Shown: positions 1-50,940 of the stretch, one piece after another
Layout of the letters: each line of letters begins with the position of its first letter
Numbering within the stretch: position 1 is the first letter of the stretch
From: Watersipora subatra
Taxonomy: Eukaryota; Bryozoa; Gymnolaemata; Cheilostomatida; Watersiporidae
Length of the DNA: 64,000 bases
Direction of reading: 5' to 3'
Assembly: GCF_963576615.1 (NCBI RefSeq)
Contig: NC_088715.1
Span: forward strand, 62,569,481 to 62,633,480
Notes under the pieces: model-generated
Told to the model about the DNA's origin: nothing
Database searches by the model: none
Seen by the model: the letters and a program-made list of their open reading frames with translations, nothing else
Made by a program: the position numbers and the translations under genes

Positions 1-485
1 CACTGCTCCACTGTCTACCAACCGCTAACCCTGCTTTTGTTAGTTTTAGTAAAATATTTAACACTTTTTTAAACATTCAAAACTAGTAGTTGCTCACCCT
101 TTATATTTTCGAATGTTGTTTTTAACGAAGTCAAGCAGAAAAAGCAACTCGGGCAAAACTCTGATCAAGTGGATTCAATATAAACTGACTGTATACTCAT
201 TATTTTTAAATCAAAAAATGAGTTCGGCTGTTTTAAATTAAAAAAATCGATAAATTTTGAAAATAAATTTATTACATCAGTTTTCCATATATAAACTTGT
301 TGATGAACTACTTGAAAGTTTCAGTACTTTTTGTAAACTTTTAGTTTTAATTGCAATCAAATAAGATTACACTTTTTCGTTCGATGAGAACTTATCGATT
401 TATAGTTAAACAAGGGTGATCTTGTAACAATTCTTTATAAGTTTAAGGTTAAATTCAAACAAGTAATACAGAGTTTTTAGCATCC

Positions 486-558
486 GGCCTTGTGGCCCAA
501 TGGATAAGGCGTCTGACTACGAATCAGAAGATTGTGGGTTAGAGTCCCATCAAGGTCA
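486..558 (+). tRNA. tRNA-Arg(ACG), T-loop variant
   Basis: ACG-type cloverleaf with all stems intact. The T loop reads TTAGAGT, so C56 is A. This breaks the G19-C56 contact and the most conserved part of box B, so transcription is doubtful. The subtype recurs at 8611, 11308, 19433, 22130 and 31595. Confidence 0.8.
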
Positions 559-568
559 ATATGTCATG

Positions 569-572
569 TTTT
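569..572 (+). terminator. Pol III T-run terminator, ACG type
   Basis: TTTT lies 10 nt after the discriminator of the gene at 486, in the conserved 3' flank ATGTCATGTTTTGTG. Copies with anticodon ATG at 5922, 16744, 27570, 28910 and 37679 lack a few bases of this flank but keep the T4 run. Confidence 0.7.
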
Positions 573-1150
573 GTGTTGATAAAAGAATAATTAGTACTTA
601 CAATAATGATATCGATGCATGGATTTTTGAGATTTAACAGCTCAAATTGTAAAACTTAAACTCTTTAAATTAAAAGGAATAGAATAAATTATTGAAATGT
701 ATGGTTTTAACAGCTGTCGAAACAATTACATTCAGTATCATATTATTTAACTGAGTATGATAGATAAAGGTAAGCTTGTAGATGCAAATTATTTTAAGAA
801 CATGTCAGAACCAAAACCAAACAGTTTTGAAAATTTATGTAATCCAGTTATGTTTTGAATAGAAAAAAGTTATAATTCCTGCATAACTTTGGAGGTCCTA
901 CAATTAGTATTTCTGGCTCTGAATAAACAAAAAATTATCCATGCCAAAATATAGTTTACCTAATTGGTGTGTTTTCAAAATCAGCGTGACATAGTTTTAA
1001 TATTGCTATTTCTGAAGTTATAAAGCATTTCAAGTCTTCGAAAATAAATGAATGGTGAATTTACAAAAAAGTATTTTCCTTTGCGTGTTTTAGCTTACTA
1101 ACTAATGATGTTGTGTTGATTGTTTTCAAATTTTTTTTTAGGACCGAGAT

Positions 1151-1158
1151 TATAAAAG
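1151..1158 (+). promoter_or_regulatory. Upstream TATA element of UCG-type tRNA genes
   Basis: TATAAAAG lies at -29 to -22 from the mature 5' end of the gene at 1180. The same octamer sits at the same offset before most UCG-type and 5'-UCG chimeric loci (for example 2499 for 2528). It is TACAAAAG before 33633. The position suits TBP/TFIIIB contact for Pol III; that role is inferred. The ACG-type genes lack it. Confidence 0.6.
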
Positions 1159-1179
1159 CTCATGATGTTATGTGTATCC

Positions 1180-1252
1180 GGCTCTGTGGCCTAATGGATA
1201 AGGCGTCTGACTTCGAATCAGAAGATTGTGGGTTCGAGTCCCATCAGAGTCA
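1180..1252 (+). tRNA. tRNA-Arg(UCG), canonical
   Basis: All four stems pair (only the G2-T71 wobble), anticodon loop CTTCGAA, and intact box A (TGGCCTAATGG) and box B (GGTTCGAGTCC). Would read CGA and, by wobble, CGG codons. One of seven identical canonical UCG genes (also 6608, 12002, 17430, 28256, 32289, 33633). Confidence 0.96.
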
Positions 1253-1260
1253 ACAGATCA

Positions 1261-1264
1261 TTTT
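1261..1264 (+). terminator. Pol III T-run terminator, UCG type
   Basis: TTTT begins 8 nt after the discriminator base of the gene at 1180, with further T4 runs at 1272 and 1281. The same spacing follows the UCG-type copies generally. Confidence 0.75.
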
Positions 1265-1833
1265 AACAACCTTTTCTATCATTTTATAAAATTGATCGAA
1301 AGTTTGAGTAGGTATATCTTCACTGTTGCTCAACATGTCTGGAAAAATCACTGCTCCACTGTCTACCAACCAATAACCCTGCTTTTGTTAGTTTTAGTAA
1401 AATATTTAACACTTTTTTAAACATTCAAAACTAGTAGTTGCTCACCCTTTATATTTTCGAATGTTGTTTTTAACGAAGTCAAGCAGAAAAAGCAACTCGG
1501 GCAAAACTCTGATTAGGTGGATTCAATATAAACTGACTGTATACTCATAATTTTTAAATCAAAAAATTAGTTTGGCTGTTTTACATTCGAGAAATCGATA
1601 AAGTAAAAAAAACAAGTTATTACATTACTTTTCCATATATATACTTGTTAATGAACTACTTGAAAGTTTCAGTACTTTTTGTAAACTTTTAGTTTTAATT
1701 GCAATCAAATAAGACTACACTTTCTGGTTCGATGAGAATTTATCGCTTTATAGTTAAACCACAGTGATCTTGTAACAAAACTTCATAAGTTTAAGGTTAA
1801 ATTCAAACCAATAATACAATATTTTCAGCATCT

Positions 1834-1906
1834 GGCCTTGTGACCCAATGGAAAAGGCATTTGACTACGAATCAGAAATTTGTGGTCTCGAGCCCCATCA
1901 AGGTCA
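1834..1906 (+). tRNA. tRNA-Arg(ACG)-like, weak D arm and T arm
   Basis: D arm reads GACCCAATGGAAAAGGC, so G10 is A and two D-stem pairs are lost. T53 and C54 weaken the T arm and box B (GTCTCGAG). Anticodon ACG retained. Member of an amplified, probably poorly functional ACG subfamily. Confidence 0.7.
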
Positions 1907-2527
1907 ATATGTCATGTTTTGTGTCGATAAAAGAGTAATTAGTACTTACAATAATGATATCGTCACATGAATTTTTGAGATTTAACAGCTCAAATTGTAA
2001 AACTTAAACTCTTTAAATTAAAAGAAATAGAATAATTTACTGAAATGGATGGTTTTAACAACTGTCGAAACAATTACAACCAGTGTTATATTATTTAACC
2101 GAATATAATAGATAAATGTAAGCTTCTAGATGCAAAATATCTTAAGAACGTGTCAGAACAAAAACAAAAACGTTTTGAAAAAAGTGTGTAATCCAGTTAT
2201 GTATTGAAGAGAAAAAGTAATAATTCCTACAAAACTTTGGATGTCTTAGATTTAGTATTTCTAGCTCTGAATAAACAAAAAGTTATCCATGTCAAAATAT
2301 AGTTTACCTAATTGGTGTGTTTTCAAAATCAGCGTCACATAGTTTTAATATTGCTATTTCTGAAGTTATGAAGCATTTCAAGTCTTCGAAAATAAATGAA
2401 TGGTGAATTTACAAAAAAGTATTTTACTTTGCGTGTTTTAGCTTACTAACTAATGATGTTGTGCTGATTGTTTTCAAGTTTTTTTTTAGGACCGACATTA
2501 TAAAAGCTCATGATTGTATGTGTATCC

Positions 2528-2600
2528 GGTTCTGTGGCCTAATGGATAAGGCGTCTGACTTCGAATCAGAAGATTGTGGGTTCGAGTCCCATCAAGGTCA
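2528..2600 (+). tRNA. Chimeric tRNA-Arg(UCG): UCG-type 5', ACG-type 3'
   Basis: 5' part and upstream flank (with TATAAAAG) are UCG type; the CAAGGTC 3' acceptor strand and downstream flank are ACG type. Acceptor GGTTCTG/CAAGGTC has a C5-A68 mismatch plus wobble pairs. The about 650-bp spacer normally between the two genes is missing, as expected for a crossover inside the gene. Confidence 0.9.
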
Positions 2601-3222
2601 ATATGTCATGTTTTGTGTTGATAAAAGAGTACTTAGTACTTACAATAATGATATCGACGCATAGATTTTTTAGATTTAACAGCTCAAATTGTAAAACTTA
2701 AAAATTTCAAATTAAAAGAAATAGAATAATTTACTGAAACGTATGGTTTTAACAACTGTCGAAACAATTACGACCAGTGTTATATTATTTAACCGAATAT
2801 AATAGATAAATGTAAGCTTCTAGATGCAAATTATTTTAAGAACGTGTCAGAACAAAAACAAAAATGTTTTGGAAAAAGTGTGTAACCCAGTGATGTATTG
2901 AAGAGAAAAAGTTATGATTCCTACAAAACTTTGGATGTCTCAGATTTAGTATTTCTAGCTCTGATTAAACAAAAAGTTATCTATGTCAAAATACAGTTTA
3001 CCTATTTGGTGTGTTTTCAAAATCAGCGTGACATAGTTTTAATATTGCTATTTCTGAAGTTATAAAGCATTTCAAGTCTTCGAAAATAAATGAATGGTGA
3101 ATTTACAAAGAAGTATTTTACTTTGCGTGTTTTAGCTTACTAGCTAATGATGTTGTGTTGATTGTTTTCAAGTTTTTTCTTTAGGACCGACATTATAAAA
3201 GCTCATGATTTTATGTGTATCC

Positions 3223-3295
3223 GGTTCTGTCGCTTAATGGATAAGGCGTCTGACTTCGAATCAGAAAATTGTGGGTTCGAGTCCCATCAAGGTCA
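3223..3295 (+). tRNA. Second chimeric tRNA-Arg(UCG)
   Basis: Same junction type as 2528 but with D arm GCTTAATGGATAAGGC and variable region AAATT. Acceptor GGTTCTG/CAAGGTC has one mismatch. It follows 2528 directly, making two single-gene units of about 695 bp. Confidence 0.9.
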
Positions 3296-3916
3296 ATACG
3301 TCATGTTTTGTGTTGATAAAAGAGTAGTTAGTACTTACAATAATGATATCGACGCATGGTTTTTTGAGATTTAACAGCTCAAATTGTAAAACTTAAACTC
3401 TTTAAATTAAAAGAAATAGAATAAATTATTGAAATGGATGGTTTTAACAGCTGTCCAAACAATTACATTCAGTATCATATTATTTAACCGAGTATGATAG
3501 ATAAATGTAAGCTTGTAGGTGCAAATTATTTTAAGAACATGTCAGAACCATAACCAAACAGTTTTGAAAATGTATGTAATCCAGTTATGTTTTGAATAGA
3601 AAAAAGTTATAACTCCTACATAACTTTGGAGGTCTTACAACTAGTTTTTCTAGCTCTGAATAAACAAAAAGTTATCTATGTCAAAATATAGTTTACCTAT
3701 TTGGTGTGTTTTCAAAATCAGTGTGACATAGTTTTAATACTGCTATTTCTGAAGTTATAAAGCATTTCAAATTTTCGAAAATAAATGAATGGTGAATCTA
3801 CAAAAAAGTATTTTACTTTGCGTGTTTTAGCTTACTAGCTAATGATGTTCTGTTGATTGTTTTCAAATTTTTTTTTAGGACCAAGATTATAAAAGCTCAT
3901 GATGTTATGTGTATCC

Positions 3917-3989
3917 GGCTCTGTCGCTTAATGGATAAGGCGTCTGACTTCGAATCAGAAAATTGTGGGTTCGAGTCCCATCAGAATCA
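3917..3989 (+). tRNA. tRNA-Arg(UCG), acceptor variant
   Basis: UCG type with 3' strand CAGAATC, giving a C3-A70 mismatch, and D stem GCTT/AGGC using a T-G pair. Anticodon loop and box B are intact. Same subtype at 14739, 25565 and 35676. Confidence 0.85.
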
Positions 3990-4570
3990 ACACATCATTT
4001 TAACAACCTTTTCAATCATTTTAAAAAACTAATCGAAAGGTTGAGCAGGTATATCGTTATTGTTGCCCAACGTGCCTGGAAAAACCACCGCTCCACTGTC
4101 TACCAACCAATAACCCTGCTTTTGTTAGTTTTAGTAAAATTTTTAACACGTTTTTAAACATTCAAAACTAGTAGTTGCTCACCCTTTATATTTTCGAATG
4201 TTGTTTTTAACGAAGTCAAGCAGAAAAAGCAACTCGGGCAAAACTCTGACTAGGTGTATTCAATATAAGCTGATTGTATACTCATAATCTTTGAATAAAG
4301 AAATGAGTTCGACTGTTTTAAATTAAAAAAATCGATAAATTTAAAAAATAAATTTATTACATCGGTTTTCCATATATAAACTTGTTAATGAACTATTTGA
4401 AAGATTCAGTACTTTTTGTAAACTTTTAGTTTTAATTGCAATCAAATAAGATTACACTTTTTGGTTCGATGAGAACTTATCGATTTATAGTTAAACCACA
4501 GTGATCTTGTAACAAAACTTCATAAGTTTAAGGTTAAATTCAAACCAATAATACAATATTTTCAGCATCT

Positions 4571-4643
4571 GGCCTTGTGACCCAATGGAAAAGGCATTTG
4601 ACTACGAATCAGAAGTTTGTGGTTTCGAGCCCCATCAAGGTCA
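4571..4643 (+). tRNA. tRNA-Arg(ACG)-like, weak D arm
   Basis: Same A10/GGAAAAGG D-arm subfamily as 1834; T stem GTGGT/CCCAT lacks the 53-61 pair. T loop TTCGAGC. Confidence 0.7.
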
Positions 4644-5267
4644 ATATGTCATGTTTTGTGTCGATAAAAGAGTAATTAGTACTTACAATATTGATATCGT
4701 CACATGGATTTTTGAGATTTAACAGCTCAAATTGTAAAACTTAAACTCTTTAAATTAAAAGGACTAGAATAAAGTATTGAAATGGATGGTTTTAACAGCT
4801 GTCGAAACAATTAAATTCAGTATCATATTATTTAACTGAGTATGATAGTTAAATGTAAGCTTGTAGATGCAAATTATTTTAAGAACATGTCAGAACAAAA
4901 ACCAAAAAGTTTTGAAAAAGTATGTAATCCAGTTATGTATTGAATAGAAAAAAGTTATAATTTCTACATAACTTTGGAGGTCTTACAATTAGTATTTCTA
5001 GCTCTGAATAAACAAAAAGTTATTCTTGTCAAATTATTGTTGTACATGTTTGGTGTGTTTTCAAGGTCAGCGTGACAAAGTTTTAATAATGCTATTTCTG
5101 AAGTTATAAAGCATTTCAAGTCTTTGAAAATAAATGAATGGTGAATTTACAAAAAAAGTAGTTTACTTTGCGTGTTTTAGCTTACTAACTAATGAGGTTG
5201 TGCTGATTGTTTTCAAGTTTTTTCTTTAGGACCGAGATTATAAAAGCTCATAATGTTATGTGTATCC

Positions 5268-5340
5268 GGCTCTGTGGCCTAATGGATAAGGCGTCTGACT
5301 TCGAATCAGAAGATTGTGGGCTCGAGTCCCATCAGAGTCA
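5268..5340 (+). tRNA. tRNA-Arg(UCG), T54C
   Basis: Stems intact; T loop CTCGAGT, so box B is GGCTCGAGTCC. T54 normally forms the reverse-Hoogsteen pair with A58, so the T loop may be weakened. Recurs at 16090 and 26916. Confidence 0.85.
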
Positions 5341-5921
5341 ACAGATGATTTTAACAACCTTTTCAATCATTTTATAAAATTGATCGAAAGTTTGAGTAGG
5401 TGTATCTTTACTGTTGCTCAACTTGTCTGGAAAAACCACTGCTCCACTGTCTACCAACCGCTAATTCTGCTTTTGTTAGTTTTAGTAAAATATTTAACAC
5501 TTTTTTAAACATTCAAAACTAGTAGTTGCTCACCCTTTATATTTTCGAATGTTGTTTTTAACAAAGTCAAGCAGAAAAAGCAACTCGAAGAAAACTCTGA
5601 TTAGGTGGATTCAATATAAACTGACTGTATACTCATAACTTTTAAATCAGAAAATGAGTTCGGCTGTTTTACATTCAAGAAATCGATAAATTAAAAAAAA
5701 CAAAATATTTCATTACTTTTCCATATAGAAACTTGTTAATGAACTACTTGAAAGTTTCAGTACTTTTTGTAAACTTTTAGTTTTAATTGCAATCAAATAA
5801 GATTACACTTTCTGGTTCGATGAGAACTTATCGATTTATAGTTAAACAACGGTGATCTTGTAACAATTCTTCATAAGTTTAAGGTTAAATTCAAACAAGT
5901 AATACAGAGTTTTTAGCATCC

Positions 5922-5994
5922 GGCCTTGTGGCCCAATGGATAAGGCGTCTGATTATGAATCAGAAGATTGTGGTTTCAAGTCCCATCAAGGTCA
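5922..5994 (+). tRNA. ACG-type tRNA body with ATG (His-codon) anticodon
   Basis: Anticodon loop TTATGAA instead of CTACGAA (C32T and C35T). T arm also altered (G53T; T loop TTCAAGT, G57A). Loss of C35 removes the main arginyl-tRNA synthetase identity element. Probably a defective copy, but amplified (16744, 27570, 28910, 37679). Confidence 0.75.
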
Positions 5995-6607
5995 TGTTTT
6001 GTGTTGATAAAAGAGTAGTTAGTACTTACAATAATGATATCGACGCATGGATTTTTGAGATTTAACAGCTCAAATTGTAAAACTTAAACTCTTTAAATTA
6101 AAAGGAATAGAATAATTTATTGAAATGTATGGTTTTAACAGCTGTCGAAACAACCACACTGAGTGTTATATTATTTAACTTAATATAATAGATAAATGTT
6201 AGCTTCTAGATGCAAAATATCTTAAGAACGTGTCAGAACAAAAACAAAAATGTTTTGAAAAAAGTGTGTAATCCAGTTATGTATTGAAGAGAAAAAGTAA
6301 TAATTCTTACAAAACTTTGGATGTCTTAGATTTAGTATTTCTAGCTCTGAATAAACAAAAAGTTATCCATGTCAAAATATAGTTTACCTAATTGGTGTGT
6401 TTTCAAAATCAGCGTGACATAGTTTTAATATTGCTATTTCTGAAGTTATAAAGCATTTCAAGTCTTCAAAAATAAATGAATGGTGAATTTACAAAAAAGT
6501 ATTTTACTTTGCGTGTTTTAGCTTACTAGCTAATGATGTTCTGTTGATTGTTTTCAAATTTTTTTTTAGGACCAAGATTATAAAAGCTCATGATGTTATG
6601 TGTATCC

Positions 6608-6680
6608 GGCTCTGTGGCCTAATGGATAAGGCGTCTGACTTCGAATCAGAAGATTGTGGGTTCGAGTCCCATCAGAGTCA
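6608..6680 (+). tRNA. tRNA-Arg(UCG), canonical
   Basis: Identical to 1180: all stems pair and both promoter boxes are consensus. Confidence 0.96.
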
Positions 6681-7261
6681 ACAGATCATTTTAACAACCT
6701 TTTCAATCATTTTATAAAATTGATCGAAAGTTTGAGTAGGTGTATCTTTACTGTTGCTCAACATGTCTGGAAAAACCACTGCTCCACTGTCTACCAACCA
6801 ATAACCCTGCTTTTGTTAGTTTTAGTAAAATATTTAACACTTTTTTAAACATTCAAAACTAGTAGTTGCTCACCCTTTATATTTTCGAATGTTGTTTTTA
6901 ACGAAGTCAAGCAGAAAATGCAACTCGGGCAAAACTCTGACTTGGTGTATTCAATATAAACTGATTGTATACTCATAATCTTTAAATAAAGAAATGAGTT
7001 CGACTGTTTTAAATTAAAAAAATCGATAAATTTAAAAAATAAATTTATTACATCAGTTTTCCATATATAAACTTGTTAATGAACTTCTTGAAAGTTTCAG
7101 TACTTTTTGTAAACTTTAAGTTTTAATTGCAATCAAATAAGATTACACTTTTTGGTTCGATGAGAACTTATCGATTTATAGTTAAACCACAGTGATCTTG
7201 TAACAAAACTTCATAAGTTTAAGGTTAAATTCAAACCAATAATACAATATTTTCAGCATCT

Positions 7262-7334
7262 GGCCTTGTGACCCAATGGAAAAGGCATTTGACTACGAAT
7301 CAGAAATTTGTGGGTTCGAGCCCCATCAAGGTCA
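7262..7334 (+). tRNA. tRNA-Arg(ACG)-like, weak D arm, good T arm
   Basis: A10 D-arm subfamily, but the T stem GTGGG/CCCAT pairs and box B is GGTTCGAGCCC. The least damaged version of this subfamily (also 9959, 18084, 20781, 23478). Confidence 0.75.
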
Positions 7335-7956
7335 ATATGTCATGTTTTGTGTCGATAAAAGAGTAATTAGTACTTACAATATTGATATCGTCACATGGAT
7401 TTTTGAGATTTAACAGCTCAAATTGTAAAACTTAAACTCTTTAAATTAAAAGGAATAGAATAATTTATTGAAATGGATGGTTTTAACAGCCGTCGAAACA
7501 ATTACATTCAGTATCATATTATTTAACTGAATATTATAGATAAATGTAAGCTTGTAGATCCAAATTATGTTAAGAACATGTCAGAACAAAAACCAAAAAG
7601 TTTTGAAAAAGTATGTAATCCAGTTATGTATTGAATAGAAAAAAGTTATAATTCCTACATAACTTTGGAGGTCCTACAGTTAGTATTTCTAGCTCTGAAT
7701 AAACAAAAAGTTATTCTTGTCAAATTATTGTTGTACATATTTGGTGTGTTTTTCAGGTCAGCGAGACAAAGTTTTAATAATGCTATTTCTGAAGTTATAA
7801 AGCATTTCAAGTCTTTGAAAATAAATGAATGGTGAATTTACAAAAAAGTATTTTACTTTGCGTGTTTTAGCTTACTAACTAATGATGTTGTGCTGATTGT
7901 TTTCAAGTTTTTTTTTAGGACTGAGATTATAAAAGCTCTTGATGTTATGTGTATCC

Positions 7957-8029
7957 GGCTCTGTAGCCTAATGGATAAGGCGTTTGACTTTGAATCAGAA
8001 GATTGTGGGTTCGAGTCCCATCAGAGTCA
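7957..8029 (+). tRNA. UCG-type tRNA body with TTG (Gln-codon) anticodon
   Basis: Anticodon loop CTTTGAA (C35T) reads CAA. Also C28T and G9A. Acceptor, D and T stems intact, and box B consensus. The body is Arg-like, so charging is uncertain once C35 is lost. Recurs at 18779. Confidence 0.8.
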
Positions 8030-8610
8030 ACAAATGATTTTAACAACCTTTTCAATCATTTTATAAAATTGATCGAAAGTTTGAGTAGGTGTATCTTTAC
8101 TGTTGCTCAACATGTCTGGAAAAACCACTGCTCCACTGTCTACCAACCAATAACCCTGCTTTTGTTAGTTTTAGTAAAATATTTAACACTTTTATAAACA
8201 TTCAAAACTAGTAGTTGCTCACCCTTTATATTTTCGAATGTTGTTTTTAACGAAGTCAAGCAGAAAAAGCAACTCGGGCAAAACTCTGATCAAGTGGATT
8301 CAATATAAACTGACTGTATACTCATTATTTTTAAATCAAAAAATGAGTTCGGCTGTTTTAAATTAAAAAAATCGATAAATTTTGAAAATAAATTTATTAC
8401 ATCAGTTTTCCATATATAAACTTGTTGATGAACTACTTGAAAGTTTCAGTACTTTTTGTAAACTTTTAGTTTTAATTGCAATCAAATAAGATTACACTTT
8501 TTCGTTCGATGAGAACTTATCGATTTATAGTTAAACAAGGGTGATCTTGTAACAATTCTTTATAAGTTTAAGGTTAAATTCAAACAAGTAATACAGAGTT
8601 TTTAGCATCC

Positions 8611-8683
8611 GGCCTTGTGGCCCAATGGATAAGGCGTCTGACTATGAATCGGAAGATTGTGGGTTAGAGTCCCATCAAGGTCA
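8611..8683 (+). tRNA. ACG-type tRNA body with ATG anticodon, T-loop variant
   Basis: Loop CTATGAA; 3' anticodon strand TCGGA gives a T-G pair; T loop TTAGAGT. Its copy-B partner at 19433 keeps ACG and TCAGA, so these two changes arose after the 10.8-kb duplication. Confidence 0.75.
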
Positions 8684-9304
8684 ATATGTCATGTTTTGTG
8701 TTGATAAAAGAATAATTAGTACTTACAATAATGATATCGACGCATGGATTTTTGAGATTTAACAGCTCAAATTGTAAAACTTAAACTCTTTAAATTAAAA
8801 GGAATAGAATAAATTATTGAAATGTATGGTTTTAACAGCTGTCGAAACAATTACATTCAGTATCATATTATTTAACTGAGTATGATAGATAAAGGTAAGC
8901 TTGTAGATGCAAATTATTTTAAGAACATGTCAGAACCAAAACCAAACAGTTTTGAAAATTTATGTAATCCAGTTATGTTTTGAATAGAAAAAAGTTATAA
9001 TTCCTACATAACTTTGGAGGTCCTACAATTAGTATTTCTGGCTCTGAATAAACAAAAAATTATCCATGCCAAAATATAGTTTACCTAATTGGTGTGTTTT
9101 CAAAATCAGCGTGACATAGTTTTAATATTGCTATTTCTGAAGTTATAAAGCATTTCAAGTCTTCGAAAATAAATGAATGGTGAATTTACAAAAAAGTATT
9201 TTCCTTTGCGTGTTTTAGCTTACTAACTAATGATGTTGTGTTGATTGTTTTCAAATTTTTTTTTAGGACCGAGATTATAAAAGCTCATGATGTTATGTGT
9301 ATCC

Positions 9305-9377
9305 GGCTCTGTGGCCTAATGGATAATTCGTCTGACTTTGAATCAGAAGATTGTGGGTTCGAGTCACATCAGAGTCA
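9305..9377 (+). pseudogene. tRNA pseudogene, TTG anticodon, broken D and T arms
   Basis: 3' D strand ATTC instead of AGGC breaks two D-stem pairs. T stem GTGGG/CACAT has one mismatch, and box B loses a C. Anticodon loop CTTTGAA. Same at 20127. Confidence 0.8.
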
Positions 9378-9958
9378 ACAGATCATTTTAACAACCTTTT
9401 CTATCATTTTATAAAATTGATCGAAAGTTTGAGTAGGTATATCTTCACTGTTGCTCAACATGTCTGGAAAAATCACTGCTCCACTGTCTACCAACCAATA
9501 ACCCTGCTTTTGTTAGTTTTAGTAAAATATTTAACACTTTTTTAAACATTCAAAACTAGTAGTTGCTCACCCTTTATATTTTCGAATGTTGTTTTTAACG
9601 AAATCAAGCAGAAAATGCAACTCGGGCAAAACTCTGACTTGGTGTATTCAATATAAACTGATTGTATACTCATAATCTTTAAATAAAGAAATGAGTTCGA
9701 CTGTTTTAAATTAAAAAAATCGATAAATTTAAAAAATAAATTTATTACATCAGTTTTCCATATATAAACTTGTTAATGAACTTCTTGAAAGTTTCAGTAC
9801 TTTTTGTAAACTTTTAGTTTTAATTGCAATCAAATAAGATTACACTTTTTGGTTCGATGAGAACTTATCGATTTATAGTTAAACCACAGTGATCTTGTAA
9901 CAAAACTTCATACGTTTAAGGTTAAATTCAAACCAATAATACAATATTTTCAGCATCT

Positions 9959-10031
9959 GGCCTTGTGACCCAATGGAAAAGGCATTTGACTACGAATCAG
10001 AAATTTGTGGGTTCGAGCCCCATCAAGGTCA
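9959..10031 (+). tRNA. tRNA-Arg(ACG)-like, weak D arm
   Basis: Matches 7262 in D-arm defect and intact T arm. Confidence 0.75.
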
Positions 10032-41413: not shown

Positions 41414-41542
41414 GGTAGACCTATGTTTGGCTGTCTATATCTCAGCTTCTAGTTGTTAATCTCCTTGATTCTTTTTTTAGAACATCAGTCAACACCTCAA
41501 GATAACTAATAAAGCATAATAATATTATGCTTTCTCTATTCT
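41414..41542 (-). repeat. Right terminal inverted repeat of the TTAA element
   Basis: Reverse complement of the left repeat, with about nine substitutions between the two arms. The arm divergence shows the insertion is not very recent. Confidence 0.9.
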
Positions 41543-41729
41543 TTAATGAAATACTTGAAAGTTTCAGTACATTTTGTAAACTTTTAGTTTTAATTTGCAA
41601 TCAAATAAGATTACACTTTTTCGTTCGATGAGAACTTATCAATTTATAGTTAAACAACGGTGATCTTGTAACAAATCTTCATAAGTTTAAGGTTAAATTC
41701 AAACCAATAATACAGAGTTTTTAGCATCT

Positions 41730-41802
41730 GGCCATGTGGCCCAATGGATAAGGCGTCTGACTACGAATCAGAAGATTGTGGGTTCGAGTCCCATCAAGGT
41801 CA
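41730..41802 (+). tRNA. tRNA-Arg(ACG), T5A
   Basis: First locus after the transposon. GGCCATG gives an A5-A68 mismatch; otherwise consensus ACG type. Confidence 0.88.
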
Positions 41803-42424
41803 ATATATAATGTTTTGTGTTGATAAAAGAGTAGTTAGTACTTACAATAATGATATCGACGCATGGATTTTTGAGATTTAACAGCTCAAATTGTAAAACT
41901 TAAATTCTTTAAATTAAAAGGAATAGAATAATTTATTGAAATGGATGATTTTAACAGCTGTCGAAACAATTACATTCAGTATCATATTATTTAACTGAAT
42001 ATTATAGATAAATGTTAGCTTCTAGATGCAAAATATTTTAACAACGTGTTAGAACAAAAACAAAAACGTTTTGGAAAAAGTGTGTAATCCAGTTATGTAT
42101 TGAACAGAAAAATTAATAATTCCTACAAAACTTTGGATGTCTTAGATGTAGTATTTCTAGCTCTGAATAAACAAAAAGTTATCCATGTCAAAATATAGTT
42201 TACCTATTTGGTGTGTTTTCAAAATCAGCGTGACATAGTTTTAATACTGCTATTTCTGAAGTTATAAAACATTTCAAGTCTTCGAAAATAAATGAATGGT
42301 GAATTTACAAAAAAGTATTTTACTTTGCGTGTTTTAGCTTACTAGCTAATGATGTTGTGTCGATTGTTTTCAAGTTTTTTCTTTAGGACCGAGATTATAA
42401 AAGCTCATGATGTTATGTGTATCC

Positions 42425-42497
42425 AGCTCTTTCGCCTAATGGATAAGGCGTCTGACTTCGAATCAGAAGATTGTGGGTTCGAGTCCCATCAGAGTCA
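42425..42497 (+). tRNA. tRNA-Arg(UCG), acceptor damaged at both ends
   Basis: Starts AGCTCTT: G1A and G7T leave only five acceptor pairs. Anticodon and T arms are consensus. Confidence 0.78.
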
Positions 42498-43078
42498 ACA
42501 GATCATTTTAACAACCTTTTCAATCATTTTATAAAATTGATCGAAAGGTTGAGTAGGTATATCTTTACTGTTGCTCAACGTGCCTGGAAAAAACACCGCT
42601 CTACTGTCTACCAACCGATTAACCAGCGTTTATTAATCTTAACAAAATATTTAACACTTTTTTTAACATTCAGAAATAATAGTTGCTCACCCTTTATATT
42701 TTCGAATGTTGTTTTTAACGAAGTCAAGCAGAAAAAGCAACTCGAAGAAAACTCTGATTAGGTGGATTCAATATAAACTGACTGTAAACTAATAATTTTT
42801 AAATCAGAAAATGAGTTCGTCTGTTTTACATTCAAGAAATCGATAAATTAAAAAAAACAAATTACTACATTACTTTTCCATATATAAACTTGTTAATGAA
42901 CTACTTGAAAGTTTCAGTACTTTTTGTAAACTTTTAGTTTTAATTGCAATCAAATAAGATTACACTTTTTGGTTCGATGAGAACTTATCGATTTATAGTT
43001 AAACAACGGTGATCTTGTAACAATTCTTCATAAGTTTAAGGTTAAATTCAAACAAGTAATACAGAGTTTTTAACATCC

Positions 43079-43151
43079 GGTCTTGTGGCCCAATGGATAA
43101 GGCATCTGACTACGAATCAGAAGATTGTGGTTTCGAGTCCCATCAAGATCA
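43079..43151 (+). tRNA. tRNA-Arg(ACG), compensatory acceptor change
   Basis: GGTCTTG/CAAGATC: C3T and G70A together replace a C-G pair with T-A, so the acceptor stem stays fully paired. Box B is GTTTCGAGTCC (G53T). Confidence 0.85.
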
Positions 43152-43772
43152 ATATGTCATGTTTTGTGTTTATAAAAGAATAATTAGTACTTACAACAAT
43201 GATATCGACGCATGGATTTTTGAGATTTAACAGCTCAAATTGTTCTACTTAAAATCTTCAAATTAAAAGAAATAGAATAATTTACTGAAACGTATGGTTT
43301 TAACAACTGTCGAAACAATTACAACCAGTGTTATATTATTTAACTGAATATAATAGATAAATGTAAGCTTCTAGACGCAAATTATTTTAAGAACATGTCA
43401 GAACAAAAACAAAAACGTTTTGGAAAAAGTGTGTAACCCAGTTATGTATTGAAGAGAAAAAGTTACGATTCCTACAAAACTTTGGATATCTCAGATTTAG
43501 TATTTCTAGCTCTGAATAAACAAAAAGTTATCCATGTCAAAATAAAGTTTACGTATTTGGTGTGTTTTTAAAATCAGCGTGACATAGTTTTAATATTGCT
43601 ATTTCTGAAGTTATAAAGCATTTCAAGTCTTCGAAAATAAATGAATGGTGAATTTACAAAAAAGTATTTTACTTTGCGTGTTTTAGCTTACTAACTAATG
43701 ATGTTATGCTGATTGTTTTCAAGTTTTTTTTTAGGACCGAGATTATAAAAGCTCTTGATGTTATGTGTATCC

Positions 43773-43845
43773 GGCTCAGTGGCCTAATGGATAAGGCGTC
43801 TGACTTCGAATCAGAAGATTGTGGGTTCGAGTCCCATCAGAGTCA
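43773..43845 (+). tRNA. tRNA-Arg(UCG), T6A
   Basis: GGCTCAG gives an A6-A67 mismatch; rest consensus. Confidence 0.85.
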
Positions 43846-44426
43846 ACAGATGATTTTAACAACCTTTTTAATCATTTTATAAAATTGATCGAAAGTTTGA
43901 GTAGGTAGATCTTTATTGTTGCTCAAGGTGTCTGGAAAAACCACTGCTCCACTGTCTACCAACCAATAACCCTGCTTTTGTTAGTTTTAGTAAAATATTT
44001 AACACTTTTTTAAACATTCAAAACTAGTAGTTGCTCACCCTTTATATTTTCGATTGTTGTTTTTAACGAAGTCAAGCAGAAAAAGCAACTCGGGCAAAAC
44101 TCTGATCAGGTGGATTCAATATAAACTGACTGTATACTCATAATTTTTAAATCAAAAAATGAGTTCGGCTGTTTTAAATTCAAGAAATCGATAAATTAAA
44201 AAAAACAAATTATTACATTACTTTTCCAAATATAAACTTGTTAATGAACTACTTGAAAGTTTCAGTACTTTTCGTAAACTTTTAGTTTTAATTGCAATCA
44301 AATAAGATTACACTTTTTGGTTCGATGAGAACTTATCGATTTATAGTTAAACAACGGTGATCTTGTAACAAATCTTCATAAGTTTAAGGTTAAATTCAAA
44401 CAAGTAATGCAGAGTTTTTAGCATCC

Positions 44427-44499
44427 GGCCTTGTGGCCCAATGGATAAGGCGTCTGACTACGTATCAGAAGATTGTGGGTTCGAGTCCCATCAAGGTCA
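44427..44499 (+). tRNA. tRNA-Arg(ACG), A38T
   Basis: Anticodon loop CTACGTA; all stems and boxes intact. Confidence 0.88.
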
Positions 44500-45124
44500 A
44501 TATGTCATGTTTTGTTTTGATAAAAGAGTAGTTAGTACTTACAATAATGATATTGACGCATGGATTTTTGAGATTTAACAGCTCAAATTGTAAAACTTAA
44601 ACTCTTTAAATTAAAAGGAATAGAATAATTTATTGAAATGGATGGTTTTAACAGCTGTCGAAACAATTACATTCAGTATCATATTATTTAACTGAATATT
44701 ATAGATAAATGTTAGCTTCTAGATGCAAAATATTTTAAGAACGCGTTAGAACAAAAACAAAAACGTTTTGGAAAAAGTGTGTAATCCAGTTATGTATTGA
44801 ACAGAAAAAATAATAATTCCTACAAAACTTTGGATATCTCAGATTTAGTATTTCTAGCTCTGAATAAACAAAAAGTTATCCATGTCAAAATATAGTTTAC
44901 CTATTTGGTGTGTTTTCAAAATCACCGTGACATAGTTTTAATACTGCTATTTCTGAAGTTATAAAGCATTTCTTCAAGTCTTCGAAAATAAATGAATGGT
45001 GAATTTACAAAAAAGTATTTTACTTTGCGTGTTTTAGCTTACTAGCTAATGATGTTGTGCTGATTGTTTTCAAGTTTTTTCTTTAGGACCGAGATTATAA
45101 AAGCTCATGATGTTATGTGTATCA

Positions 45125-45197
45125 GGCTCTGTCGCCTAATGGATAAGGCGTCTGACTTCGAATCAGAAGATTGTGGGTTTGAGTCCCATCAGAGTCA
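45125..45197 (+). tRNA. tRNA-Arg(UCG), C56T
   Basis: T loop TTTGAGT weakens box B; other arms intact. Confidence 0.82.
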
Positions 45198-45778
45198 ACA
45201 GATAGTTTTAACAACCTTTTCAATCATTTTATAAAATTGATCGAAAGTTTGAGTAGGTATATCTTTACTGTTGCTCAATGTGCCTGGAAAAACCACCGCT
45301 CCACTGTCTACCAACCGATTACCTAGCGTTTATTAATCTTAACAAAATATTTAACCCTTTTTTTAACATTCAAAACTAATAGTTGCTCACCCTTTATATT
45401 TTCGAATGTTGTTTTTAACGAAGTCAAGCAGAAAAAGCAACTCGGGCAAAACTCTGATTAGGTGGATTCAATATAAACTGACTGTAAACTCATTATTTTT
45501 AAATCAGAAAATGAGTTCGGCTGTTTTACATTCAAGAAATCGATAAATTAAAAAAAACAAATTACTACATTACTTTTCCATATATAAACTTGTTAATGAA
45601 CTACTTGAAAGTTTCAGTACTTTTTGTAAACTTTTAGTTTTAATTGCAATCAAATAAGATTACACTTTTTGGTTCGATGAGAACTTATCAATTTATAGTT
45701 AAACAACGGTGATCTTGTAACAAATCTTCATAAGTTTAACGTTAAATTCAAACAAGTAATACAGAGTTTTTAGCATCC

Positions 45779-45851
45779 GGCCTTGTGGCCCAATGGATAA
45801 GGCGTCTGACTACGAATCAGAAGATTGTGGGTTCGAGTCCCATCAAGGTCA
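45779..45851 (+). tRNA. tRNA-Arg(ACG), canonical
   Basis: Consensus ACG gene identical to 39015. Confidence 0.96.
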
Positions 45852-46474
45852 ATATGTCATGTTTTGTGTTGATAAAAGAATAATTAGTACTTACAATAAT
45901 GATATCGACGCATGGATTTTTGAGATTTAACAGCTCAAATTGTAAAACTTAAACTCTTTAAATTAAAAGGAATAGAATAAATTATTGAAATGGATGCTTT
46001 TAACAGCTTTCGAAACAATTACATTCAGTATCATATTATTTAACTGAATATAATAGATAAATGTAAGCTTGTAGATCCAAATTATTTTAAGAACATGTCA
46101 GAACAAAAACCAAAAAGTTTTGAAAAAGTATGTAATCCAGTTATGTTTTGAATAGAAAAAAGTTATAATTCCTACATAACTTAGGAGGTCCTACAATTAG
46201 TATTTCTAGCTCTGAATAAACAAAAAGTTATTCTTGTCAAATTATTGTTGTACATATTTGGTGTGTTTTCAAGGTCAGCGTGACGAAGTTTTAATAATGC
46301 TATTTCTGAAGTTATAAAGCATTTCAAGTCTTCGAAAATAAATGAATGGTGAATTTACAAAAAAGTATTTTACTTTGCGTGTTTTAGCTTACTAGCTAAT
46401 GATGTTGTGTTGATTGTTTTCAAGTTTTTTCTTTAGGACCGAAACTATAAAAGCTCCTGATGATATGTGTATCC

Positions 46475-46547
46475 GGCTCTGTGGCCTAATGGACAAGGCG
46501 CCTGACTTCGAATCAGAAGATTGTTGGTTCAAGTCCCATCAGAGGCA
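46475..46547 (+). pseudogene. tRNA-Arg(UCG) pseudogene
   Basis: CAGAGGC creates a G2-G71 mismatch, T27C breaks the first anticodon-stem pair, and the T arm reads TTGGTTCAAG (G51T, G57A). First of the strongly decayed right-edge copies. Confidence 0.78.
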
Positions 46548-47129
46548 ACACATCATTTTAACAACCTTTTCAATCATTTTAAAAAATTGATCGCAAGGTT
46601 GAGTAGGTATATCTTTACTGTTGCTCAACGTGTTTGGAAAAACCACCGCTCTACTGTCTACCAACCAATAACCCTGCTTTTGTTAGTTTTAGTAAAAAAA
46701 TTAACACTTTTTTAAACATTCAAAACTAATAGTTGCTCACTTTTTATATTTTTGAATGTTGTTTTTAATGAAGTCAAGCAGCAAATTCAACTCGGGCAAA
46801 ACTCTGATTAGGTGGATTCAATATAAACTGATTGTATACTCATAATTTATAAATCAAAAAATGAGTTCGGCTGTATTAAATTCAAGGATTCAATAAATAA
46901 AATAAATAAAATTTAATACATCAGTTTTCCATATATAAACTTGTTGATGAACTACTTGAAAGTTTCAGTACATTTTGTAAACTTTTAGTTTTAATTGCAA
47001 TCAAATAAGATTACACATTTTGGTTCTACGAGAACTTATCAATTTATAGTTAAACAACGGTGATCTTGTAACAAAACTTCATAAGTTTAAGGTTAAAGTC
47101 AAACAAGTAATACAGAGATTTTAGCATCC

Positions 47130-47202
47130 GGCCTTGTGGTCCAATAGATAAGGTGTCTGACTGCGAATCAGAAGAATGTGGGTTCGAGTCTAATCAGAGT
47201 CA
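47130..47202 (+). pseudogene. Chimeric tRNA pseudogene, GCG anticodon
   Basis: ACG-type 5' side and upstream flank joined to UCG-type CAGAGTC and downstream flank, the reverse of the 2528 chimera. A34G gives a GCG anticodon, G19 of the D loop is lost (AATAGATA), and T stem strand CTAAT is mispaired. Confidence 0.8.
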
Positions 47203-47728
47203 ACTCATCATTTTAAAAGGTTGAAGAGGTAAAACTTTAGTGTATTAGAAAAAACTATCGCTTCACAGTCTACCTACCAATAACTCAGCATATATATATA
47301 AAAAAATTACCCTTTGCTGAACATTCAAGATTGATATTTGCTTATCCCCTACAATTTCGAATGTTGTTTTTAACGAAGTCAAGCAGAAAAAGCAACTCGG
47401 GCAAAATTCTGTCTAAGTGGATTTGAACTGAACTGATTGCATACTTATAATCTCTAACTCAAAAATTGAGTTTAACTGTTTTAAATTCAAGAAATCGATA
47501 AATTTAAAAGTTTATTACATTAATTTTCCATATAAAAACTTGTTAATGAACTACTTGAAAGTTTCAGTACCTTTTGTAAACTTTTAGTTTTAATTGTAAT
47601 CAAATAAGATTACACTTTTTGGTTCTAGAAGAACTTATCGATTTATAGTTAAACCGCGGTGATCTTGTAACAAAACTTCCTAAGTTTAAAGTTAAATTCA
47701 AACAATTATTACAGCATTTTTAGCATCT

Positions 47729-47801
47729 CGCCTTGTGGCCCAATGGATAAGGCATCTGACTACGAATCAGAAGAATGTGGCTTCGAGTCCCATCAAGGTC
47801 A
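47729..47801 (+). pseudogene. tRNA-Arg(ACG) pseudogene
   Basis: G1C breaks the first acceptor pair, and G53C removes the T-stem closing pair and damages box B. Confidence 0.78.
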
Positions 47802-48425
47802 ATATGTCATGTTTTGTGTTGATAAAAGAGTAATTAATACTTACAATAATGATATCGACGCATAGATTTTTGAGATTTAACAGCTCAAATTGTAAAACTT
47901 AAACTCTTTAAGTTAAAAGGAATAGAATAATTTATTGAAATGGATGGTTTTAACAGCTATCGAAACAATTACACTCAGTATCATATTATTTAACTGAATA
48001 TTATAGATAAATGTTAGCTTCTAGATGCAAATTATTTTAAGAACATGTCAGAACAAAAACCAAAAAGTTTTGGAAAAAGTGTATAATCTAGTTATGTAAT
48101 GAATAGAAAAAAGTTATAATTCCTACATAACTTTGGATGTCTTACAATTAGTATTTCTAGCTCTGAATAAACAAAAAGTTAGTCTTGTCAAATTTTTGTT
48201 GTACATATTTAGTGTGTTTTCAAGGTCAGCATAACATAGTTTGAGTATAGCTATTTCTGATGTTATAAAGCATTTCAAGTCTTCGAAAATAAATGAATGG
48301 TGAATTCACCAAAAAAGTATTTTACTTTGCGTGTGTTAGCTTACTAACTAATGATGTTGTGTTGATTGTTTTCAAGTTTTTCTTTAGGACCGAGATTATA
48401 AAAGCTCATGATGTAATGTGTATCC

Positions 48426-48498
48426 GGCTCTGTCGCCTAATGGGTAAGGTGTCTGACTTCGAATCAGAAGATTGTTGGATCGAGTCCCATCAGAGTCA
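48426..48498 (+). pseudogene. tRNA-Arg(UCG) pseudogene
   Basis: D loop GGATA is GGGTA, D-stem closing G26 region altered (AAGGTG), T stem GTTGG mismatched with CCCAT, T54A. Confidence 0.75.
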
Positions 48499-49076
48499 AC
48501 AGATCATTTTAACAACCTTTTCAATCATTTTAAAAAATTGATCGAAAGTTTGAGTAGGTATATCTTCACTGTTGCTCAACGTGCCTGGAAAAACCACTGC
48601 TCCACTGTCTACCAACCAATAACCTTGCTTTTGTTAGTTTTAGTAAAATATTTAACACTTTGTTAAACATTCAAAACTAGTAGTTGGTCACCCTTTATAT
48701 TTTCGAATAGTGTTTTTAACGAAGTCAAGCAGAAAAAGCAACTCGGGGAAAACTCTGATTAGGTGGATTCAATATAAACTGATTGTATACTCATAATTTT
48801 TAAATCAAAAAATGAGTTCGGCTGTTTTAAATTCAAGAAACCGATAAATTAAAAAAAAATTATCAGATTACTTTTTCATATAGAAACTTGTTCATGAAAT
48901 ACGTGAAAGTTTCAGTACATTTTGTAAACTTTTAGTTTTAATTGTAATCAAATAAGATTACAATTTTTGGTTCGATGAGAACTTATCAATTTATAGTTAA
49001 ACCACAGTGATCTTGTAACAAAATTTCATAAGTTTAAAGTTAAATTCAAACCAATAATACAGAGTTTTTAGCATCC

Positions 49077-49149
49077 GGCCTTGTGGCCCAATGGATAAGG
49101 TGTCTGACTTCGAATCAGAAGATTGTTGGTTCGAGTCCCATCAGAGTCA
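49077..49149 (+). tRNA. Chimeric tRNA-Arg(UCG): ACG-type 5', UCG-type 3'
   Basis: Upstream flank and GGCCTTGTGGCCC are ACG type; anticodon TCG, CAGAGTC and downstream flank are UCG type. Acceptor has a C4-A69 mismatch and G51T weakens the T stem. Distance from 48426 is 651 bp and to 49730 653 bp, so the longer spacer is missing. Confidence 0.85.
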
Positions 49150-49729
49150 ACAGATCATTTTAACAACCTTTTCAATCATTTTAAAAAACTGATCGAAAGT
49201 TTGAGTAGGTATATCTTTATTGTCGCTCAAAGTGCCTGGAAAAACCACCGCTCCACTGTCTACCAACCAATTATCCTGCGTTTATTAATCTTAACAAAAT
49301 ATTTAACACTTTTTTAAACATTCAAAACTAATAATTGGTCACCCTTTATATTTTCGAATGTTGTTTTTAACGAAGTCAAGCAGAAAAAGAAACTTGGGCA
49401 AAACTCTGACTAGGTGGATTCAATATAAACTGATTTTATACTCATAATCTTTAAATCAAAAAATGAAATCGGCCTTTCTAAATTCAAAAATTCGATAAGT
49501 TGAAAACAAAATGTATTACATTAGTTTTCCATATAGAAACTTGTTAATGAACTACGTGAAAGTTTCTGTACATTTTGTAAACCTTTAGTTTTAATTGTAA
49601 TCAAATAAGATTACAATTTTTGGTTCGATGAGAACTTATCGATTTATAGTTAAACCATAGTGATCTTGTAACAAAATTTCATAAGTTTAAAGTTAAATTC
49701 AAACCAATAATACAGAGTTTTTAGCATCC

Positions 49730-49802
49730 GGCCTTGTGGCCCAATGGATAAGGCGTCTGACTACGAATCAGAAGATTGTGGGTTCGAGTCCCATCAGTGT
49801 CG
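49730..49802 (+). tRNA. Chimeric tRNA-Arg(ACG): ACG-type 5', UCG-type 3' flank
   Basis: ACG anticodon and consensus D, anticodon and T arms, but 3' strand CAGTGTC with discriminator G and a UCG-type downstream flank. C4-T69 mismatch. Confidence 0.82.
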
Positions 49803-50381
49803 ACACATCATTTTAACAACATTTTCAATATTTTAAAAAAATTGATCGAAAGGTTGACTTGGTAAAGCTTTACTTTTGCTCAATGTGTCTAGAAAAGCCA
49901 CCACTCCACTGTCTACCAATCGATTACCCTGCGTTTATTAATTTCAACAAAATATTTAACACTTTTTTAAACATTCAAAACTAATAGTTGCTCAACCTTT
50001 ATATTTTCGAATGTTGTTTTTAGCGAAGTCAAGCAGAAAAAGCAACTCGGGCAAAATTCTGATTAGGTGGATTCAATATAAACTGATTGTATACTCATAA
50101 TCTTTAAATCAAAAAATAAGTTCGGCTGTTTTAAATTCAAGAAATCGATAAATTAAAAAAAAATTTATTACATTAATTTTCTATATATAAACTTGTTAAT
50201 GAACTACTTGACAGTTTCAGTACTTTTTGTGAACTTTTAGTTTTAATTGTAATCAAATAATATTGCACTTTTTGGTTCGATGAGAACTTTTCGATTTATA
50301 GTTAAACCACAGTGATCTTGTAACAAAACTTCATAAGTTTAAGGTTAAATTCAAACCATCAATACAGTATTTTCAGCATCG

Positions 50382-50451
50382 GGCCTTGTGACCCAATAGA
50401 AAAGGCGTCTGACTACGAATCAGAAGAAGGGTTCGGGTCCAATCAAGGTCA
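50382..50451 (+). pseudogene. tRNA-Arg(ACG) pseudogene, truncated variable/T region
   Basis: Only 70 nt. Bases of the variable region and 5' T strand are missing (AGAAGAAGGGTTCGGGTCC), the D loop GG is lost and the T loop mutated. Confidence 0.8.
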
Positions 50452-50663
50452 ATGTGTCATGTTTTGTGTTGATAAAAGAGTAATTATTACTGACATTAAC
50501 AATAATGGCACTTGGATTTTTGAGATTTATCCGTTCAATTTCTAAATCTTAAAATATTTACTTTAAACTAACTGGAATAATTTACTGAAAGGTATGTTTT
50601 TAACAACTGTCGAAACAATTACATTCAGTGTCATATCTTTAAATCGATGACAACTGATCCATT

Positions 50664-50736
50664 GGCCCTTTGGCCCAATGAATAAGGTGTCTGCCTGTGA
50701 ATCAGAAGCTTGTGGGTTTGAGTCCCATCAAGTTCA
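50664..50736 (+). pseudogene. Terminal tRNA pseudogene, GTG anticodon
   Basis: Last tRNA-like copy. GGCCCTT/CAAGTTC has three acceptor mismatches, anticodon loop CTGTGAA, A31C mispair, T loop TTTGAGT. It follows the previous copy after only 212 bp, so an internal deletion removed most of a unit. ACG-type flank is recognisable to about 50,940. Confidence 0.8.
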
Positions 50737-50940
50737 ATATGTCATGTTTTGTGTTGATAAAAGAGTAATGAGTACTTATGATAATGATATCAACGCATGG
50801 AATTTCGAGATTTAGCAGCTCAAATTCTAAAACATAAAATCTTCACTTCAAGTGAAATAATGTAAAATCATTTATTTAATTGTTTGTTATTAAGAATAGT
50901 CGAAACCATTCCATTCAGTGTCATATCTTCAAACTTGATT

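Follow-up and report, generated by a model that had tools for sequence, protein, structure and literature searches.

Extent and location of the array

The window analysed here is a 64,000-nucleotide stretch of the genome of the bryozoan Watersipora subatra (contig NC_088715.1, C8:62569481-62633480), located about 3 Mb from the end of this 65.55-Mb contig in an assembly of 783.7 Mb and 239 contigs (GCF_963576615.1). Most of it is occupied by a tandem array derived from arginine transfer RNA (tRNA-Arg) genes, of which it holds the right-hand 51 kb on the + strand (window 1..50961; positions given without a contig are those of the window). In the window 74 tRNA matches reached the Rfam gathering score, all on the + strand between 486 and 50736, with E-values of 7.2e-14 to 0.035 and bit scores from 72.3 down to 29.8; ARAGORN made 66 tRNA calls in this part of the array. 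A preliminary description of this DNA had counted 74 copies on one strand over at least 50 kb. The count was reproduced, and the length is exceeded at ~129 kb once the region left of the window is included.

The left edge of the window cuts the array, whose start lies 78.5 kb further left. With an extra 180 kb on that side included, a profile built from the copies found 182 matches; five that were scattered further left were dropped, and 177 tRNA-like copies, all on the + strand, were assigned to an array running from C8:62490973 to C8:62620216, the latter being window position 50736. The window contains about the right-hand two fifths of it (74 of the 177 copies). On the right, the last tRNA match reaches 50736, and homology to the repeat unit, which sets the limit used here, continues to about 50961. 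Tandem Repeats Finder (TRF), which covered the window only, called no tandem repeat within the array part of it, its first entry being at 51,498.

A dimeric unit carrying two gene types

The repeat unit is a 1,348-bp dimer in which an ACG-type gene with ~620 bp of spacer is followed by a TCG-type gene with ~580 bp of a different spacer, giving alternate steps of ~694 and ~654 bp. An example, taken from the sequence and the steps, lies at 486..1833 on the + strand, its ACG-type half measuring 694 bp and its TCG-type half 654 bp. The two gene types stay in register across 129 kb, so chance is no explanation. They differ at the acceptor pairs 4:69 and 5:68 and are paired there in both types, as expected of two once-functional genes. 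Beyond the gene bodies no other clear likeness between the two half-units was seen by eye, a comparison for which no dedicated search was made. The head-to-tail arrangement with long common spacers, as opposed to dispersal by retroposition, ruled out a tRNA-derived short interspersed element.

The alternating 1.35-kb head-to-tail unit of the preliminary description therefore stands as a dimer, with the reservation that alternation is imperfect, since 18 of the 177 copies have mixed flanks. Flanks were purely ACG-type in 76 copies and purely TCG-type in another 76; 12 copies are TCG-type upstream and ACG-type downstream, six are the reverse, and seven could not be fully classed. Not one of the 18 hybrids has fully paired stems. 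Some stand in runs, such as the two consecutive copies starting at 2528 and 3223 (2528..3295, + strand), which have a TCG-type 5' side, an ACG-type 3' side and ACG-type downstream spacer and whose stems are incompletely paired, and a further three consecutive copies near -67 to -65.7 kb. In these runs the dimer gives way to a monomer of ~695 or ~660 bp (694-695 bp in the window run). Such runs would be expected from exchange between the two gene bodies.

State of the individual copies

The 177 copies comprise 78 different tRNA sequences. Pairing is complete over the 20 stem pairs checked in 75 copies, the exact B-box is present in 92, and a T4 run lies within 40 nt downstream of 176; C56 is retained in 152 copies and A20 in 175. 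A TCG or ACG anticodon combined with paired stems, exact B-box and T4 was found in 32 of the 177 copies (12 of the 74 in the window) and the other 145 fail, by a strict test under which a copy with a single mismatch may still work. Preservation differs between the two types, the exact B-box being kept in 70 of 89 copies with TCG-type flanks vs 22 of 84 with ACG-type flanks.

The range is well illustrated within the window, where all copies named here lie on the + strand. The canonical TCG-type copy at 1180..1252, whose sequence is that of 14 of the 177, has paired stems, an exact B-box, T4 within 40 nt and a TATA-like word, TATAAAAG, ~30 bp upstream. The canonical ACG-type copy at 39015..39087 is also intact; its sequence is shared by five of the 177 copies, and the identical tRNA occurs as single genes on contigs C7 and C3. 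The first copy in the window, an ACG-type gene at 486..558, carries a C56-to-A change in the T-loop and B-box, in a sequence found 11 times in the array. The ACG-type copy at 1834..1906 is strongly decayed, scoring 37.6 bits in Rfam, and belongs to a decayed lineage that has been amplified throughout the array; among decayed ACG-type sequences with several stem and B-box changes, single sequences recur 11 and nine times. At the degenerate right edge (50382..50736) the last two tRNA-like copies score 29.8 and 31.1 bits, one having an internal deletion and one the anticodon GTG.

Anticodon shifts

The array had been described as made only of two arginine (Arg) isoacceptors, a claim the anticodons contradict. 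Over the 177 copies they are ACG 59, TCG 57, TTG 32, ATG 21 and GCG 3, with one each of CCG, TAG, ACA, CTG and GTG; the 74 in the window divide into TCG 28, ACG 26, TTG 11, ATG 7, GCG 1 and GTG 1. The 53 copies with TTG, which reads glutamine (Gln) codons, or ATG, which reads histidine (His) codons, make up about a third of the array. In the window 18 of 74 copies have TTG or ATG, and 19 have some Gln- or His-reading anticodon on an Arg-type body.

A C35-to-T change, at a CpG, turns TCG into TTG and ACG into ATG. These are alloacceptor shifts in which body and flanks are retained: upstream flanks are TCG-type in 31 of the 32 TTG copies, the other being unclassed, and ACG-type in all 21 ATG copies. 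Examples, all on the + strand, are a TCG-type body with TTG at 7957..8029 (70.9 bits in Rfam; stems, B-box and T4 intact), another otherwise intact TTG copy at 10654..10726 whose sequence occurs in eight of the 177 copies, and an ACG-type body with ATG at 5922..5994, of which the array has 10 identical copies. Stems, B-box and T4 are all kept in 20 of the 53 TTG and ATG copies, and A20 in all 53. Damage is no greater in shifted copies than in the corresponding unshifted ones: 22 of 57 TCG and 16 of 32 TTG copies are intact (Fisher p 0.37), as are 10 of 59 ACG and 4 of 21 ATG copies (p 1.0), these p values being a guide only as array copies are related.

In 63 dimers the mean decayed fraction was 0.24 for the six CpGs of both genes vs 0.15 for 18 spacer CpGs, and 0.43 and 0.22 for the anticodon CpG of the TCG and ACG genes respectively, from which the anticodon CpG appears unprotected. 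Special hypermutability of position 35 in the TCG gene was considered and rejected: the site takes 13 steps on a tree of all spacers, tied highest, and 10 on the tree of its own flanks, where 17 of 57 common-variant sites exceed it. We would put the changes at position 35 down to CpG mutation and exchange, not selection.

Shifted forms also occur outside the array. Copies reading ATG lie at C4:38287947 and C8:62935735 and, five in number, in a dispersed family on contig C9; a TTG copy lies at C8:62372876, and it is related, with 97.6% identity over 452 bp, to a gene at C8:62470105 that has a TCG anticodon. This last gene, situated 99 kb to the left of the window, closely resembles the array type and contains wobble pairs.

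Higher-order repeats and edges

A lag comparison revealed a higher-order repeat of 16 half-units at 317..22766 on the + strand, in which approximately 317-11944 and 11139-22766, lying 10,822 bp apart, differ at 3 of 11,628 positions and share an exact stretch of 8,028 bp. When 170 half-units were clustered at 98.5% identity, 81 clusters resulted, and the cluster string BRSFIEGLCHADBKAD occurs twice in succession in the window. The outermost copies have diverged. Compared with a core copy, 14 edge copies have a mean identity of 0.90 in the tRNA and 0.86 and 0.84 in the two flanks; the tRNAs of 134 core copies reach 0.94 (ACG) and 0.97 (TCG), and their flanks 0.95-0.96. That the edge tRNAs are better kept than their flanks fits once-functional founders.

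Satellites with higher-order repeats, of the alpha-satellite type, consist of divergent monomers multiplied as near-identical multi-monomer blocks, with a homogeneous core and decayed edges. Both features are found here, namely blocks of divergent monomers repeated at much higher identity, and diverged edges around a more homogeneous core; unlike that type, the monomers carry Pol III (RNA polymerase III) genes and the array spans 129 kb.

Change in genes and spacers

Diversity was measured in 63 complete regular dimers (126 of the 177 copies, the irregular remainder being left out) and compared with 99 overlapping spacer windows of tRNA length. The ACG gene has a diversity of 0.081 and the TCG gene one of 0.042, against a spacer mean of 0.065 (0.025-0.135); lower values than in the ACG gene were obtained for 73 of the 99 spacer windows, and lower values than in the TCG gene for 19. 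Removing near-duplicates left 34 dimers and altered this little (ACG 0.079, TCG 0.042, spacer 0.069; 58 and 14 of the 99 windows lower). On a spacer tree, each spacer site took 0.95 parsimony steps on average, compared with 1.07 for sites of the ACG gene and 0.93 for those of the TCG gene; the intervals overlap, and the values excluding CpG sites are 0.92, 0.96 and 0.67. A tree built from the spacer lowers the spacer's own step count, and the test thus leans against detecting constraint. The ACG genes would appear to evolve with no sign of constraint, the TCG genes perhaps with a slight one.

Some spacer blocks in the core units, at about +510 to +580, +910 to +950 and +1150 to +1170 from the ACG gene start (for example window 996-1066, 1396-1436 and 1636-1656), are less diverse than the tRNA genes. 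Against the old edge units some of these blocks have identities of 0.87-0.93, the rest of the unit ranging over 0.73-0.94, and there is no clear excess.

Arginine genes and Pol III arrays elsewhere in the genome

Outside the array we found three TCG genes (one on C10, two on C8) and three identical ACG genes (C3, C5 and C1), with acceptor stems of their own that begin GGCCTAG or GGCCTCG; C7 and C3 each carry a further ACG gene, its tRNA identical to the canonical ACG copy of the array. These eight were judged intact by eye from ARAGORN sequences and are a lower bound. With the canonical TCG copy as query, 40 of 274 candidates were scored, all of them within the array; a body-pattern search allowing up to two mismatches hit 152 places (146 forward, 6 reverse), most of them, among the matches listed, in the array. 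The whole-genome search with RF00005 scored the best 63 of 81,024 first-look candidates, from which no total Arg count is derivable.

The C7 and C3 genes match the array only from ~9 bp upstream to ~16-22 bp downstream of the tRNA, much like a Pol III transcript. Their origin as retroposed array copies was nevertheless rejected, as their longer flanks are common to each other and to the C9 family, and for this reason we read the two genes as an old lineage rather than as copies that have left the array. The C9 family itself (C9:37827900-38194900) comprises five duplicated Arg-bodied ATG copies with common flanks, two of them 95.7% alike over 3 kb; their single-gene relatives on C7 and C3 have the anticodon ACG.

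Other Pol III genes are also arrayed in tandem. A tRNA-Lys-TTT array occupies C3:53717358-53840584 in units of ~260 bp, with matches across ~120 kb; ARAGORN reads TTT in 48 of 50 calls from six stretches, and its three top matches lie 11,290 bp apart, two with identical layout and the third partly so, which makes it seem that this array too may contain higher-order repeats. Its diversity, from 40 distinct units in six 3-kb stretches, is 0.137 in the tRNA vs 0.208 in the spacer, the tRNA falling below all 12 spacer windows, in stretches that were chosen by high tRNA scores, which may flatter the tRNA. The Lys-TTT tRNA is of animal type; searches for the protein families PF00379, PF14830 and PF16915 matched nothing in this genome, a negative of little weight since the control genomes gave no match either. 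Arg-CCT arrays with ~142-bp units occur at three places in C2:64312600-64675900, with one Thr-CGT and one Arg-CCG reading among them. At C2:58558200-58560200 and neighbouring positions there is an array of intron-bearing tRNAs in ~215-bp units, six of seven left unnamed by ARAGORN, which is probably Arg-TCT. Finally, 5S rRNA gene arrays, partly on both strands and in ~2.5-kb steps, were detected at C11:11950493-13037206 (best 47 of 13,017 candidates scored). Given the Lys-TTT, Arg-CCT, Arg-TCT-like and 5S arrays, the tandem arraying of single Pol III gene families looks like a habit of this genome.

Origin and spread of the array

We consider it probable that a pair of tRNA-Arg genes has turned into a satellite-like array, spread by unequal exchange and gene conversion, in which a minority of copies possibly still work. 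That the array is a satellite with incidental Pol III genes had been put forward earlier as the alternative to Arg tRNA dosage, and it is this alternative which fits better, because of the higher-order repeats, the diverged edges around a more homogeneous core, tRNA parts that on average change no more slowly than spacer, the amplification of decayed and anticodon-shifted copies, and the hybrids. The founder would have been two neighbouring, ordinary tRNA-Arg genes, ACG then TCG, with starts 694 bp apart, duplicated as a 1,348-bp dimer. Dimers and then multi-dimer blocks would have multiplied, presumably through unequal exchange and gene conversion; the edges now consist of older, diverged copies and the core of near-identical ones. 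With the gene bodies being the stretch common to both half-units, exchange may fall inside them and would yield the hybrids with unpaired stems that are observed. Most copies would not be individually held to tRNA function, so that changes accrue on average as in spacer and altered or shifted versions are amplified again, while CpG mutation in the NCG anticodons would convert Arg genes to Gln-reading (TTG) or His-reading (ATG) forms. The features required of a Pol III-transcribed tRNA-Arg gene are retained in a minority of copies, for the most part TCG-type, and these may add to the Arg tRNA of the animal.

Several observations weigh against so neutral an account. The TCG-type genes are better kept than it would suggest, in diversity (0.042 vs 0.065 for spacer), in the B-box (70 of 89 vs 22 of 84) and in steps outside CpG sites (0.67 vs 0.92, with overlapping intervals when all sites are counted), and with these three together some selection on TCG copies is possible. 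In the oldest copies, those at the edges, the tRNA has been preserved better than the flanks, and the T4 run persists 3' of 176 of the 177 copies, its region being nearly invariant in the ACG type. The ratio of observed to expected CpG is also higher in the array, at 0.78, than in its flanks (0.47-0.53), which could reflect low methylation and activity, or simply youth.

The preliminary description had also proposed that the array may serve the dosage of Arg tRNA. In the strict form of this proposal many Arg TCG and ACG genes are needed and altered copies are tolerated by-products. The 32 structurally intact TCG or ACG copies (12 in the window) do outnumber the at least eight intact-looking genes elsewhere, TCG-type copies keep their B-boxes and are less diverse than the mean spacer, and the slower tRNA of the Lys-TTT array (0.137 vs 0.208) suggests that tRNA arrays in this genome can be constrained. 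Dosage leaves unexplained, however, why most copies are altered: the tRNA parts are not slowed overall, 53 of 177 copies read TTG or ATG, and single decayed ACG-type sequences were multiplied to 11 and nine copies. The strict dosage reading is weakly supported, and we think it unlikely. It should be considered that satellite, dosage and chimeric readings, the last discussed below, are not mutually exclusive.

It is also conceivable, though in our estimation very unlikely, that the array is partly working in another sense, Gln- and His-reading Arg-bodied tRNAs being transcribed in quantity as a standing, amplified source of chimeric tRNAs. If true, some CAA or CAY codons would be translated as Arg, or a remoulding of Arg to Gln or His tRNAs would be under way, driven by CpG mutation in NCG anticodons. 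For the TTG and ATG copies as such to be transcribed and to read Gln and His codons, whether charged with Arg or remoulded to Gln or His, is in our view highly improbable. Their state would allow it in part, given that 20 of the 53 retain stems, B-box and T4, that forms with C35 changed to T exist outside the array (the C9 family, C8:62372876, C8:62935735 and C4:38287947), and that all 53 keep A20, on which, together with C35, Arg identity mainly depends in plants, mammals and E. coli according to the available part of PMC9976931. The loss of C35, the other determinant in that account, means however that charging by arginyl-tRNA synthetase is probably impaired; G-1 is listed there in eukaryotic His identity, and CpG mutation alone accounts for the anticodon change.

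A role as a chromatin or boundary element, with repeated tRNA promoters acting as TFIIIC-bound barriers, has a precedent in the suggestion made for the human 1q23.3 repeat (available text of PMC4041453), and the exact B-box is kept in 92 of 177 copies; with that box absent from 62 of the 84 ACG-flank copies, we regard such a role, argued by analogy, as most improbable here. Falsely duplicated repeats in the assembly, to which the one block pair that is 99.97% identical over 11.6 kb might point, are scarcely credible given a mean unit difference of 6.4%, unique insertions and graded edges.

Comparison with known tRNA arrays

Tandem tRNA arrays are already known, and large tRNA clusters have arisen many times in eukaryotes (PMC2888827, as far as its available text goes); what is new here is the scale, the higher-order structure and the massed anticodon shifts. 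Among the matches listed from the open-licence literature, taken on titles and abstract openings, none dealt with an array of Arg genes alone that has higher-order structure or massed shifts. One close likeness in arrangement is to Entamoeba, where the available text of PMC2652664 describes long head-to-tail tRNA units, including a single-gene Arg-TCT array, and proposes conversion and possibly unequal exchange. Head-to-tail units on one strand are found in our array as well. Copies within an Entamoeba isolate are mostly uniform with no clear pseudogenes in that account, in contrast to the bryozoan array, in which most copies are altered (78 sequences, 75 of 177 copies fully paired). Short tandem repeats separate the genes in E. 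histolytica and E. dispar, unlike the window array, where TRF called none, and almost all Entamoeba tRNA genes are arrayed, whereas here dispersed Arg genes exist beside several arrays.

The variable-number tandem repeat at human 1q23.3 is likewise a large animal repeat with units carrying tRNA genes, although its GC-rich 7.3-kb unit holds five tRNA genes for four amino acids in the available text of PMC4041453, whereas the bryozoan unit is AT-rich and 1.35 kb long, holds two Arg-type genes and is arranged in higher-order blocks. Plant clusters, such as the 27-fold Pro and Tyr-Tyr-Ser series of Arabidopsis, share the tandem duplication of a single family or a fixed order of genes; they comprise 2 to 110 genes counting non-identical pairs, and the available text of PMC12652284 makes no mention of higher-order blocks or massed anticodon shifts. 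Alloacceptor shifts by anticodon substitution with the body retained are described in eukaryotes and in Drosophila clusters (PMC3923123 and PMC7919458), in single genes as far as the available text goes, as against 53 copies and two types of shift in one array.

If the satellite-like origin holds, a housekeeping tRNA gene pair can become a higher-order satellite, and one assembled locus keeps founder-like copies, decayed lineages, hybrids and re-amplified mutants side by side. Growth of this kind would carry a hazard, as the CpG within NCG anticodons makes tandem Arg tRNA arrays prone to generating Gln- and His-reading genes. Since most variants can be distinguished by sequence, silencing vs tolerated mistranslation becomes a testable question.

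Insertions and surroundings

The array is interrupted left of the window by a 9.5-kb long terminal repeat element (C8:62506286-62515792) whose - strand has retroelement-like frames and whose 733-bp terminal repeats are 97.4% alike; from its frames we presume it to be gypsy-like. In the window, a 1.37-kb insert with long terminal inverted repeats (40173..41546) lies between two TTAA sequences and splits one array spacer; it looks like a putative non-autonomous piggyBac-type element. Beyond the array there is a minisatellite with ~29 copies of a 29-bp unit at 52693-53539, with a short similar stretch at 58207-58275. Another tandem repeat, 22 copies of 21 bp at 63270-63730, is open in several frames and is probably a minisatellite rather than a gene.

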